DNA of 64,000 bases. Source: a virus. The notes under the pieces are model-generated. The model saw nothing but the letters and a program-made list of their open reading frames with translations, was not told the origin of the DNA and searched no databases. Below are positions 6,768-52,850 of the stretch, in pieces. Position numbers and translations under genes: made by a program. Position 1 is the first letter of the stretch; each line of letters starts with the position of its first letter. The stretch lies in the IMG/VR virus record IMGVR_UViG_3300019760_000006, positions 1-64,000 of that record; one strand, given 5' to 3'.

Positions 6768-6983
6768 ATGTCCTGCACAGTTAGCTATACATTTCCTTGC
6801 AAGGAGGAGTTTTCACCTAAACGGTGTGTGATAAAGCCTATTAGGGGAAGATGCTCTGCCTTCTTAACATTAATGCCAGCAACTCATTATATATTACTCC
6901 CATTTGCTAAAATTGGTTTATGTCTGCAAATGTCAAATGTTCCAGATACGTTATGGACGGTTACAGAAATTAAGGAGATTTAA
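6768..6983 (+). CDS. hypothetical Cys-rich protein (71 aa)
   Basis: GGGAGAG lies upstream of the ATG. Cys at about 3, 11, 20 and 29 and a moderately hydrophobic middle are visible, with no clear transmembrane helix. The next start is two bases after the stop. Confidence 0.5.
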   Translation: MSCTVSYTFPCKEEFSPKRCVIKPIRGRCSAFLTLMPATHYILLPFAKIGLCLQMSNVPDTLWTVTEIKEI

Positions 6984-8266: not shown

Positions 8267-8578
8267 ATGTCAAAAAGAACACAGCAGGTAAAATCATTAG
8301 GTAAGAATGGTAGACGAATCATAAAGAAACAGCAAACAATTGAATCTGTTTCAAGAGGTGGCAGAATCTTCTCCGTTATCTTTACTAAGAAAGATGGAAG
8401 TGAAAGAAAGATGGTTTGCCGGAAGGGGGTTGTGAAACATCTTAGAGGTGGACAGTCAACTACAAAGCATATCAAATCACTTGTGACTGTCTATGACACA
8501 CAGGCTAAAGGGTATCGCTCGATTAATCTTAAAACCTTGAAGATGGTCAAAGGAAGAGGTAAGACAGTTACATTCTAA
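8267..8578 (+). CDS. conserved small basic phage protein, SH3-like (103 aa)
   Basis: A basic N-terminus is followed by the pattern F-x-V-x-F-x-KKDGS-x-R-x-M-x-C-R-x-GV-x-K-x-L-x-GG, then LVTVYD and GYRSI. This pattern is familiar from a widespread family of about 90-residue phage proteins with a predicted small beta barrel. Nucleic-acid binding is plausible from the charge. GGAG-type site upstream. Confidence 0.6.
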   Translation: MSKRTQQVKSLGKNGRRIIKKQQTIESVSRGGRIFSVIFTKKDGSERKMVCRKGVVKHLRGGQSTTKHIKSLVTVYDTQAKGYRSINLKTLKMVKGRGKTVTF

Positions 8579-12395: not shown

Positions 12396-12444
12396 TAAAT
12401 AACTGCCTAAAAACCTTATTTAAACTGTAGTAACAAATAACAAT

Positions 12445-12492
12445 AAAACACTTGATAACTCTTTATTATAGGAGTTGTTAGGTGTTTTGTTG
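12445..12492 (+). terminator. intrinsic terminator
   Basis: A 17-18 pair stem (12445-12461 with 12471-12488, some G-U pairs) has loop TTTATTATA and is followed by a T-rich GTTGT. It ends the operon finishing at 12395. Confidence 0.8.
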
Positions 12493-12553
12493 TATGTTGG
12501 TTTAAATAAAATTTAAATAAAAAAATCTTCTCAATATTAAACCATTATAAAAA

Positions 12554-12730
12554 GGCAAACAGTTATTGTGCGCGCTATGTATGTGTTTTCACAACTACAG
12601 GTTGTAGTTGATGAATAACAACATGTTTGTTTGCCTATATAATATAAACATTCATTATCCGAGCATATAAGTATTTGCGCACTATTATAGTTTGCTCGGA
12701 TAATATTATCTGACTTAGATAATATTATCT
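12554..12730. other. non-coding block of stacked hairpins (origin, centromere or structured RNA candidate)
   Basis: There is no ORF from 12396 to 13050. Visible: a nested structure closed by GGCAAACA (12554-12561) and TGTTTGCC (12628-12635), enclosing GTTATT/AATAAC and CAACTAC/GTAGTTG arms. Then a perfect 12-pair hairpin ATTATCCGAGCA (12654-12665) / TGCTCGGATAAT (12693-12704). Then GATAATATTATCT twice (12699-12711, 12718-12730). Perfect arms this long in AT-rich sequence are unlikely by chance. Confidence 0.5.
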
Positions 12731-12841
12731 AAGAAAGCATTGATAAATAAAAGAAGATGAATATAAAATTTGGCCCCGACGAGGAGAGAACGTAGTGAAC
12801 GAGAATGAGGAGTGGGTTAGATCAATTTCATTATCTAAAAA

Positions 12842-12858
12842 TTCAAACACTGTTTGAA
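12842..12858. repeat. palindrome next to parS
   Basis: TTCAAACA-C-TGTTTGAA is a perfect inverted repeat with one central base, two bases before the parS site. It looks like a protein-binding site. Confidence 0.5.
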
Positions 12859-12859
12859 A

Positions 12860-12875
12860 TGTTTCACGTGGAACA
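12860..12875. promoter_or_regulatory. perfect bacterial parS (ParB binding) site
   Basis: TGTTTCACGTGGAACA is the exact reverse complement of TGTTCCACGTGAAACA. That fits the chromosomal parS consensus established in Bacillus subtilis (TGTTNCACGTGAAACA) with N = C. A further partial copy of its half (CGTGGAACACG) follows at about 12884-12894. No parA or parB gene is seen in the window, so host ParB is the likely partner. Confidence 0.8.
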
Positions 12876-12897
12876 CGTGGGGACGTGGAACACGAAT

Positions 12898-12917
12898 ATA
12901 TGAACTATTGTTCATAT
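12898..12917. repeat. palindrome, operator-like
   Basis: ATATGAAC-TATT-GTTCATAT, perfect eight-base arms, lies between parS and the promoter at 12959. It could be an operator or a short hairpin. Confidence 0.45.
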
Positions 12918-12958
12918 TAAATTAATTTAAAATTTGTAAATGTTATTCACAATAACAC

Positions 12959-12987
12959 TTGACAACAAATTATGCACATGTTATTAA
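12959..12987 (+). promoter_or_regulatory. sigma70-type promoter
   Basis: TTGACA at 12959-12964, 17-base spacer, TATTAA. It drives the operon beginning at 13051. Confidence 0.65.
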
Positions 12988-13050
12988 TACACATAATCAA
13001 TTGAAACATTAACTACAATAAAGAAAGAAAAAGAAAAGGAGAATAAACAA

Positions 13051-13212
13051 ATGGAAAAGAATGACCTTATTATCAAATACCAGTTGAAAATTGACCAGAT
13101 GGAGAGGAAAATTAAAGATACATATAAAACAGACATAGGGAGAGGTACTGCTTATTTCTTCATTAAAGAGTGGGAAGATTTTATTAAAGATTTGGAAAAG
13201 ATGGAGGATTAA
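13051..13212 (+). CDS. small hypothetical helical protein (53 aa)
   Basis: The AAAAGGAGAATAAACAA leader gives a strong ATG. Charged, helical peptide. First gene after the parS region. No family recognised. Confidence 0.6.
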   Translation: MEKNDLIIKYQLKIDQMERKIKDTYKTDIGRGTAYFFIKEWEDFIKDLEKMED

Positions 13213-33841: not shown

Positions 33842-33915
33842 TGGTGCTCCTGGAGAGAATTGAACTCTCATTAATCGCTTATAAGGCAACCGTTCTTCCT
33901 TTGAACTACAGGAGC
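33842..33915 (-). tRNA. tRNA-Ile, anticodon UAU, with encoded CCA
   Basis: 74 bases fold into a full cloverleaf: acceptor GCTCCTG/CAGGAGC (7 pairs), D stem GTTC/GAAC with GG in the loop, anticodon stem GTTGC/GCGAT with loop CTTATAA (U33, anticodon UAU), 4-base variable loop, T stem GAGAG/CTCTC with TTCAATT, discriminator A and CCA. It reads AUA, a codon that is frequent in this AT-rich genome. Confidence 0.92.
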
Positions 33916-43689: not shown

Positions 43690-45189
43690 ATAAGTAATGA
43701 AGAAACTCATCAGCTTGGGCCTTGTAGTAAAAAGCAAGAGATGATTTTAAACAATGATTCTACCCTTCTAATATGCGGAGGTGCGGCGGGATCGGGTAAA
43801 AGTTATCTCTTGCTACTGATGATTTTGAAGTACGTTGATTGTCCAAATTGGCGTGGTGTCATTTTCAGGAGATCGTATACAGAAATTGAATCTGGTGGAG
43901 GCTTGCTTGATGAGGCATCTGCAATGTATTTTGGCCTCCCCAAAAAATATAGGCCGACACTAAATAGATCAAGGGTTTGTTTTACATTCCCCTCTGGAGC
44001 GCAACTCCAGCTTGCGTCGATGCAGCATCACCCTAAAGATACTCTTAAGCAATCTGGTTCGCAATTTAGTTTTATCGGGTTCGACGAACTTTTTACGTTC
44101 GAAGAACAGCAATTCGTTTTTCTCTTTTCCCGCCTTAGATCAAGATCAAAATATCCAGGGAGGGTAGTTTGCACTACAAACCCTTATGGTGATACATTTA
44201 TCCTGAAATACGTCATAGATAATCTTGATGAGGGCGGTTTCCCTATTAAATCGCTTGATGGTAAGAAAAGATATTTTATTCGTAGAGGTGAGGATGTAAC
44301 ATTTGCCGATACTGAAGAAGAACTTAAAGAAAAGTTTGGTGATAAAGTAATGCCAATATCTTTTTCTTTTATATCGGCTAATTGTTATGATAACACTTAC
44401 CTAATGGAAAATCAACCTGAGTATGTGGCCCACCTGGAGTCACTAAAAGATGTAGATAGGGATAGACTTTTACACGGTTGTTGGTTTGCGAAAGAGAAAG
44501 CCGCTAAATATTTTGATAGAGACTGGCTCAATAAATTAGATGAAGTCCCAAGAGGTAGTACTTGTTGTAGAGGTTGGGACCGTGCATCCTCGCCGCCTTC
44601 GGAAAAAGAATTACATCCAGATTTTACAGCCTGTTGTAAGGTTTGGAGGACTCGTAATGGTGATTTTATAATCACAGGCCAGCATAGTAAAAACAATTAT
44701 GATGATGTAACTAATACTTACGGTAGGTTTAGAAAGACTCCTGGTGAAAGAGAGAATATAATTCTTGAACAAGCTATAAGTGATGGAGAATCTTGCACTA
44801 TAGTTTTGAGTGAAGATCCTGGTAGCGCAGGAAAATTTGAGTATAAGGAAAGTGCAAAGGTATTAATGTCTGAGGGTTTTCTTGTTAAAAGAGACCCTGC
44901 TTGTCCTACAGCAAGTAAACTAAAGAGGTTTGAACCGTTTTCTATTGCTTGTCAGAATGGTTTAGTAAGCATAGTTGAGAGTACATTTGACAGAAAAACT
45001 CTTGATGCCTACTATAAGGAGCTTGAAGATTTTGATGGTGAGCGTTCTTCAAGAACACGTAAAGATGATCAAGCCGATGCTACAGCTACAGCCTTTAACT
45101 ACATTTCCCAAAAGAAAAACATCCCGATAGTTTGTAGAAATCAACAAAATTTAAAGACAATGTCTAATAGTCTTCTAAATACTCTTTAA
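43690..45189 (+). CDS. terL: terminase large subunit, probable AUA start
   Basis: Walker A GGAAGSGKS lies at residues 30-38 if counted from the ATA at 43690 (13-21 from the ATG at 43741). IGFDELF about 94 residues later is Walker B plus catalytic Glu. RGWDRASS, SEDPGSAGKFEYKES and RKDDQADATA give the nuclease acidic residues. It is the packaging motor and cuts concatemers. AGGAGG sits nine bases before the ATA. The 17 codons before the ATG encode a typical terminase start (P-x-S-K-K-Q-E), and no ATG, GTG or TTG exists between the in-frame TGA and 43741. Confidence 0.9.
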   Translation: MSNEETHQLGPCSKKQEMILNNDSTLLICGGAAGSGKSYLLLLMILKYVDCPNWRGVIFRRSYTEIESGGGLLDEASAMYFGLPKKYRPTLNRSRVCFTFPSGAQLQLASMQHHPKDTLKQSGSQFSFIGFDELFTFEEQQFVFLFSRLRSRSKYPGRVVCTTNPYGDTFILKYVIDNLDEGGFPIKSLDGKKRYFIRRGEDVTFADTEEELKEKFGDKVMPISFSFISANCYDNTYLMENQPEYVAHLESLKDVDRDRLLHGCWFAKEKAAKYFDRDWLNKLDEVPRGSTCCRGWDRASSPPSEKELHPDFTACCKVWRTRNGDFIITGQHSKNNYDDVTNTYGRFRKTPGERENIILEQAISDGESCTIVLSEDPGSAGKFEYKESAKVLMSEGFLVKRDPACPTASKLKRFEPFSIACQNGLVSIVESTFDRKTLDAYYKELEDFDGERSSRTRKDDQADATATAFNYISQKKNIPIVCRNQQNLKTMSNSLLNTL

Positions 45190-51758: not shown

Positions 51759-52850
51759 ATGAAAATTAATCAGACAGAAATCAGTTATGATGTAAAGAAA
51801 CAGGCTCAGGTAACTTCACAAGGAAACCCTTGGCTATTCCACGATAGAACAGATCTTCTCCAGAATTTTCAGGTAAAGCCGGGAATTTTTACTGCTTTGT
51901 TCGGTGGATCTTTTACTACAGACAACCTTAAAACTCATACTTATGAATTTGATCGTACATTTGAGACACTGGCGATGCCAGGTGGTAAACGTTATGATGA
52001 GATTGGTAAGGATCTGAAGAAAGATCAGCACGATATGAAATACTATGGTGTACCTTCTTTTGGTCTTAGATATAATGTCATGGCACAGGATTGGATGGAC
52101 AGACGACAGCCTGGCACTATGGAGCTTATGAATGAGGCTTATGTTGAAAGTCAGATGGCTCTAAAAGCTGAAAGAGCTTGGGGTTTGTTTACAGAGTATG
52201 GTATTGCCTCTCTCCTTCTGACTGATCAGAATATCATCCTTGATGGACCTTATACACAGTATAATTATTACACAGATCTTATTGGTGGTGCTCGTCCTGC
52301 TAAAGTTGATATGAAACTTGATGAGAATGTAAATCATGAAGATCTTATGAATGCTGAAGTTGATAATATTACTCAGAAAATTATGAAAGCGGGAATGTCT
52401 GCTGGAATGATGGTTTGTCTTTGTGGAACTACTTACTTTAATCAGAGGTTGGAGATTGAAAAGCTTACAACTCTAAACCGTGAAATCAGAAATCGTCTTG
52501 ATCTTGCATCAATGCCTGTTCCTGAGTCTTCTTTTGGTACTGGTGATCTTCCCTATCGGAACTTTGAAGGTATGCTTGATGGTGTTCTTTACATTCATAT
52601 TGGTAATGAAATTCTTACAGGTACAAAAGTAATTGCTGACACTGATGCATACCTTATGCCAATGGGTCTTAGTGGTTGGCTTGCAAAAGCTTATGCTCCT
52701 GCTATTGATAGAGAGAATGTGAATAAAGAGGCTCGCGATATGTATATGTGGAGTTATGAAGATAGGTTTGGTCTTAACACTTATTTTGAAAGTAATGTGC
52801 TCTTCGCTAATCGCAGACCAGAATTTATCACTCATTTGAAGAATACGTAA
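51759..52850 (+). CDS. major capsid protein, lambda gpE-like (363 aa)
   Basis: Length, position and blocks fit the gpE family (HK97 fold): F-x-T-D-x-L-x-T-x-T-Y-E-F, GGKRYDEIG, a central RAWGLFTEYGIASLL, EILTGTKVIADTDAYLMPMG and the C-terminal MYMWSYEDRFGLNTYFESNVLFANRRPE. AGAGGTG lies 14 bases upstream of the ATG. Expected to be the most abundant virion protein. Confidence 0.88.
   Translation: MKINQTEISYDVKKQAQVTSQGNPWLFHDRTDLLQNFQVKPGIFTALFGGSFTTDNLKTHTYEFDRTFETLAMPGGKRYDEIGKDLKKDQHDMKYYGVPSFGLRYNVMAQDWMDRRQPGTMELMNEAYVESQMALKAERAWGLFTEYGIASLLLTDQNIILDGPYTQYNYYTDLIGGARPAKVDMKLDENVNHEDLMNAEVDNITQKIMKAGMSAGMMVCLCGTTYFNQRLEIEKLTTLNREIRNRLDLASMPVPESSFGTGDLPYRNFEGMLDGVLYIHIGNEILTGTKVIADTDAYLMPMGLSGWLAKAYAPAIDRENVNKEARDMYMWSYEDRFGLNTYFESNVLFANRRPEFITHLKNT

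Follow-up and report, generated by a model that had tools for sequence, protein, structure and literature searches.

An orphan chromosomal-type parS site in a myovirus-type phage is probably a binding site for the ParB protein of its host

ParB-parS is among the best studied bacterial protein-DNA systems; it is known to be used by chromosomes, by plasmids, and by those phage-plasmids in which a ParB is also encoded. The window analyzed here consists of the first 64,000 bases of a linear virus record of 92,760 bases (IMGVR_UViG_3300019760_000006); the remainder of this contig was also read.

The parS site, TGTTTCACGTGGAACA, is located at nucleotides 12860-12875 (no strand assigned), and a scan of the whole 92,760-bp contig showed it to be the sole copy. 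Its reverse complement, TGTTCCACGTGAAACA, agrees at every position with the consensus TGTTNCACGTGAAACA of chromosomal parS sites (PMC7022226), as the initial annotation had proposed. The two halves of the site, GTTTCAC and GTTCCAC, are the two half-parS words preferred by the Pseudomonas aeruginosa ParB in ChIP-seq experiments, both of which are bound by this protein (PMC10419367). The degenerate form TGTTNCACGTGNAACA also has a single match in the contig, where 3e-5 occurrences of the exact 16-mer and 5-6e-4 of the degenerate form are expected by chance. When the 64 palindromic 6-bp cores were placed in the frame TGTTN......NAACA, CACGTG was the only one present contig-wide, and the same test found only the parS core in this contig (1) and in the Pseudomonas phages NoPa (2) and XD2 (3). 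In its match to the consensus and its occurrence beyond chance the element agrees with a chromosomal-type parS.

The site and its flanking repeats lie in a 655-bp gap devoid of ORFs (12396-13050, no strand assigned; ORF list), which agrees with the non-coding gap of about 650 bases originally noted. A 12-bp direct repeat, ACGTGGAACACG (repeat family D5, plus strand), has one copy at 12866-12877, overlapping the right half of parS, and a second at 12883-12894 that includes a third half-parS word, GTGGAAC, at 12885-12891 (PMC10419367); this is the second half-like copy of the initial annotation. The parS core and a second CACGTG make up the inverted repeat CACGTG-GAA-CACGTG (12865-12879, plus strand). 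Two more inverted repeats, neither assigned to a strand, are found directly upstream (TTCAAACA-C-TGTTTGAA, 12842-12858) and directly downstream of parS (ATATGAAC-TATT-GTTCATAT, 12898-12917). They had been described as two perfect flanking palindromes, which is correct as to their presence on both sides, but neither is gapless, the first having a 1-nt centre and the second a 4-nt loop. The non-coding stretch 12430-12760 is strongly structured (z = -8.25) and includes a long terminator-like hairpin (12443-12490, plus strand) that closes the upstream operon; four hairpins or palindromes can be recognized in it, including a 20-bp perfect palindrome at 12714-12733. Also upstream of parS, at 12771-12820, there is a GC-rich, purine-biased segment, GGCCCCGACGAGGAGAGAACGTAGTGAACGAGAATGAGGAGTGGG, amid AT-rich DNA. 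Folding of the parS stretch itself was not clearly better than that of shuffled sequences (z = -1.4), and the sole Rfam match was a tRNA, with nothing in 12430-12760 or at parS; a known or strong RNA element at parS is therefore unsupported.

The phage is of the myovirus type and stands alone. Its terminase large subunit (43741-45189, plus strand), which was used for placing it, is 43% identical to the terminases of Vequintavirinae and CR3-like phages, its primase-helicase is at most 41% identical to that of Pseudomonas phage M1, and its major capsid protein (51759-52850, plus strand) shows 27% identity to that of Alteromonas phage PT11-V22 and 24.5% to those of the NoPa group. The length of 92,760 shared by PT11-V22 and the contig was dismissed as a coincidence, the capsid proteins being only 27% identical. 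Protein comparison also provided a synteny marker, in addition to the capsid gene, in a phrog_2267 gene (8267-8578, plus strand) that is 42-44% identical to the genes preceding the parS regions of NoPa and XD2. Close relatives were sought in IMG/VR using TerL, a 257-amino-acid neighbour, P0001 and the primase, and none was found; a distant blastn search of the parS region against named phages gave no match, and a search with a tail protein against GTDB genomes did not identify a host. Distant members were so diverged that an alignment of their capsid proteins could not be used for scanning. A gene for tRNA-Ile (anticodon TAT) is also present at 33842-33915 on the minus strand, and the CCA that follows it is encoded.

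The ParB domains ParB_N and HTH_ParB (PF02195 and PF17762) and the ParA-type ATPase domain AAA_31 (PF13614) are absent from the whole contig, while the same searches were positive in control genomes. This bears out the earlier statement that no parA or parB is visible, within the scope of a linear contig that has no end overlap and may be incomplete. The contig thus has neither the ParB nor the ParA-type ATPase in cis that make up a complete ParABS system, nor the partition genes of its own that define a phage-plasmid.

Distant relatives were searched for TGTTNCACGTGNAACA allowing up to one mismatch, in 20 named phages and four IMG/VR contigs, and a later search added genomes. NoPa has three sites (two exact), Y1-MI two (one exact), and XD2 four (three exact). 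In each of four P. putida phages two sites are exact and a third differs at one base. Of four full-length IMG/VR contigs of the NoPa/XD2 lineage, all with one or two sites, G058, G066 and G067 have exact sites and G056 has one-mismatch sites only. All 11 full-length genomes of this lineage of Pseudomonas myoviruses (93-98 kb) consequently have one to four sites, exact in 10 of the 11, and ParB_N was absent from these records. The reversed control pattern was not found in the 11 genomes and had one match in Barba5A. The same search found no parS in phiK7A1, Pakpunavirus EM, Nankokuvirus PS24, Barba5A, or the Acinetobacter, Aeromonas and Vibrio phages. A one-mismatch match in PT11-V22, TGTTGCAAGTGCAACA, has a broken core and was taken as chance.

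The sites of this lineage are mostly intergenic, as are all three of NoPa and both of Y1-MI in the deposited annotation, and several lie beside terminator hairpins. XD2 and the P. putida phages have in common a non-coding stretch of about 1 kb with approximately 72% identity, in which the homologous site reads TGTTCCACGTGAAACA in XD2 and TGTTTCACGTGGAACA in five P. putida phages. In the alignment the 14 fixed bases are unchanged, and the two bases that differ are those at which the ParB consensus is degenerate. This conservation of fixed bases amid diverging flanks was observed in the XD2/P. putida phage lineage. A second XD2 site (L184:1780-1795), which is perfectly palindromic, looks like a compact insertion of 17 bases when aligned with the five P. 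putida phages, which suggests that single parS sites may be gained or lost. If the contig is circularly permuted, NoPa and the window phage share the order TerL, portal, MCP, primase-helicase, phrog_2267 gene, parS, and in both phages the parS region comes late in the forward gene block and is followed by genes that are mostly on the opposite strand. NoPa, KoPa-4, Kassivere, Roomu-2, Amme-3, XD2 and Y1-MI can be considered similar to the window phage in that orphan parS sites of the host type occur in their non-coding DNA, for several of them close to where the forward block ends. On the other hand, they have one to four sites and known Pseudomonas hosts, and the core proteins shared with the window phage are only about 23-35% identical to its own.

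A wider survey of IMG/VR found the parS 16-mer in at least 120 stretches, compared with 1 for its reversal and 9 for a second control 16-mer, TGTTTGACGTCGAACA. Among the matches listed, the first site was inside a predicted ORF in 88 of 120 loci and intergenic in 32 (27%, versus 8.7% non-coding), and among the 50 long contigs with the 16-mer ParB_N was above the curated cut-off in four and weak in three more. The raw count was rejected as proof, since most loci are within ORFs and some contigs may be fragments of host chromosomes, and these figures serve here as background. Two unrelated contigs have arrays of sites. The first (G007, IMGVR_UViG_3300038443_000757; L019, L265, L266) is a phage contig of 169 kb in which parS occurs 12 times. 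The ten sites read all precede genes, and each of the four N variants is represented among them; the stretch read has phage gene families and an integrase, so this phage may be temperate. The second (G019, IMGVR_UViG_3300037518_000322; L047, L264), phage-like, 117 kb and 64-65% GC, has 24 copies, many of which are inserted after the stop codon of one gene and ahead of the ribosome-binding site of the next, in the manner of start-associated repeats. ParB_N was absent from both, and one sub-threshold HTH_ParB match was found in G019. In another contig (G003, L010:6637-6894) three copies were seen within, or next to, roughly 1.3 kb of non-coding DNA, two of them abutting head to tail (6863-6878 and 6879-6894).

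The maintenance of one to four sites in each of the distant Pseudomonas phages leads us to consider that the site is probably real and that the virus probably recruits the ParB of its host. On balance, the sequence comparisons favor a genuine parS in a phage without its own ParB, to which the host ParB would bind and load, bringing the partition machinery with it. The initial annotation had suggested that the phage borrows host ParB for segregation, placement, or control of replication or packaging; its core, a real chromosomal-type site that in the absence of a phage ParB is probably a site for the host protein, is well supported by the statistics and the distantly related Pseudomonas lineage, and the uses it named are conjectural. 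As can be expected from the known specificity of ParB, a host with a ParB of matching specificity would provide the protein that binds at 12860-12875, and the bound ParB would load as CTP-dependent sliding clamps onto the adjoining phage DNA. Through ParB the phage genome could then acquire ParA and, in hosts whose ParB recruits one, an SMC-type condensin, and it would be gathered or organized through parS to the presumed benefit of the phage. We favor this organizing role because the sites occupy non-coding DNA close to where a forward transcription block ends. So small a number of sites (one to four) in quiet DNA of this kind suits a platform on which ParB loads to organize DNA, whereas arrays of the G019 type suit titration of ParB or regulation, and we rank the possible roles as DNA organization first, titration second and operator third. 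Against this reading, the single site of the window phage could be a chance occurrence, many relatives have no site although their hosts should have ParB, and there is no obvious need for partition in a short lytic cycle.

With rising numbers of phage genomes, the same binding would deplete ParB at the host origin, and it is conceivable, though unlikely, that this is the actual function of the site, which would then act as a sponge that disturbs chromosome segregation and origin control. The two contigs with 12 and 24 sites and no ParB_N are compatible with such a role, and even one site multiplied by many phage copies could exceed the few sites of a host, which in P. aeruginosa number nine, four of them near the origin (PMC7022226). 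A sponge should nevertheless favor arrays, unlike the single site seen here or the one to four of the Pseudomonas phages. The parB gene is not essential in P. putida KT2440. ParB loss is tolerated in Pseudomonas (PMC7022226), so that the gain for the phage is not obvious. The Enterobacteriaceae and Pasteurellaceae lack par genes altogether (PMC7022226).

The parS-like element and its inverted repeats might instead be an operator that regulates a promoter about 85 bp downstream, its ligand being either host ParB or some phage protein that recognizes this sequence as well. A sigma70-like candidate for the operon starting at 13051 is found at 12959-12987 (plus strand; TTGACA, 17 nt, TATTAA), and the location of the G019 copies between stop codon and ribosome-binding site resembles that of start-associated operators. 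We consider this improbable, as the -10 box of the candidate is weak, the contig has no phage protein bearing a ParB domain, and many of the Pseudomonas phage sites are located at terminators or convergent gene ends rather than at promoters.

It is similarly improbable that the site arose by chance or merely as a side effect of local duplication and hairpin-forming DNA in a structured non-coding region. Its core does take part in the CACGTG-GAA-CACGTG hairpin and in the 12-bp direct repeat, the 330 nt upstream are strongly structured, and many windows and motifs were scanned before this one was singled out. However, about 5e-4 matches are expected contig-wide, the other palindromic cores have no match, the parS stretch is no better folded than many shuffled sequences, and a related lineage keeps such sites in the same genome region. 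That the phage is a phage-plasmid with parA and parB outside the contig is very improbable: sequence may be missing from a linear contig with no end overlap, but its 92.8 kb is near the 84-98 kb of its relatives, it has structural, replication and packaging genes, its site is of the chromosomal type whereas the parS of a plasmid is usually recognized by the ParB of that plasmid alone, and isolated relatives with complete genomes also have no ParB_N.

The parS site itself is of a known kind. It has the TGTTNCACGTGNAACA sequence and both P. aeruginosa ParB half-site words of the bacterial chromosomal ParABS systems, to which the window adds an extra half-site; unlike them, it is on a phage, outside an oriC region and without parA or parB. 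Phage-plasmids of the P1, N15 and mycobacteriophage RedRock type also have a centromere-like site on a phage genome, but they encode their own ParA and ParB and their parS is system-specific, while the window phage has no ParB and a host-type site. Staphylococcal phages such as Lacachita, which have parB only and no ParA (PMC10286716), share with it an incomplete partition system on a phage and represent the reverse case, a ParB gene without ParA as opposed to a site alone. The literature yielded no account of virulent phages with orphan parS sites of the host type, in a search conducted largely without subscription papers and preprints that is therefore weak evidence of novelty.

Extending the preferred reading, host ParB recruitment, beyond this phage is more tentative. 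Virulent phages of several unrelated lineages with orphan host-type parS sites might capture the ParB clamp, and thereby ParA and condensin, either for the organization of phage DNA or for the removal of ParB from the host origin. If true, this would be a hitherto unrecognized route by which phages exploit bacterial chromosome segregation, and if virulent phages keep host-type parS sites without ParB, the segregation proteins of the host would be a direct factor in lytic infection.
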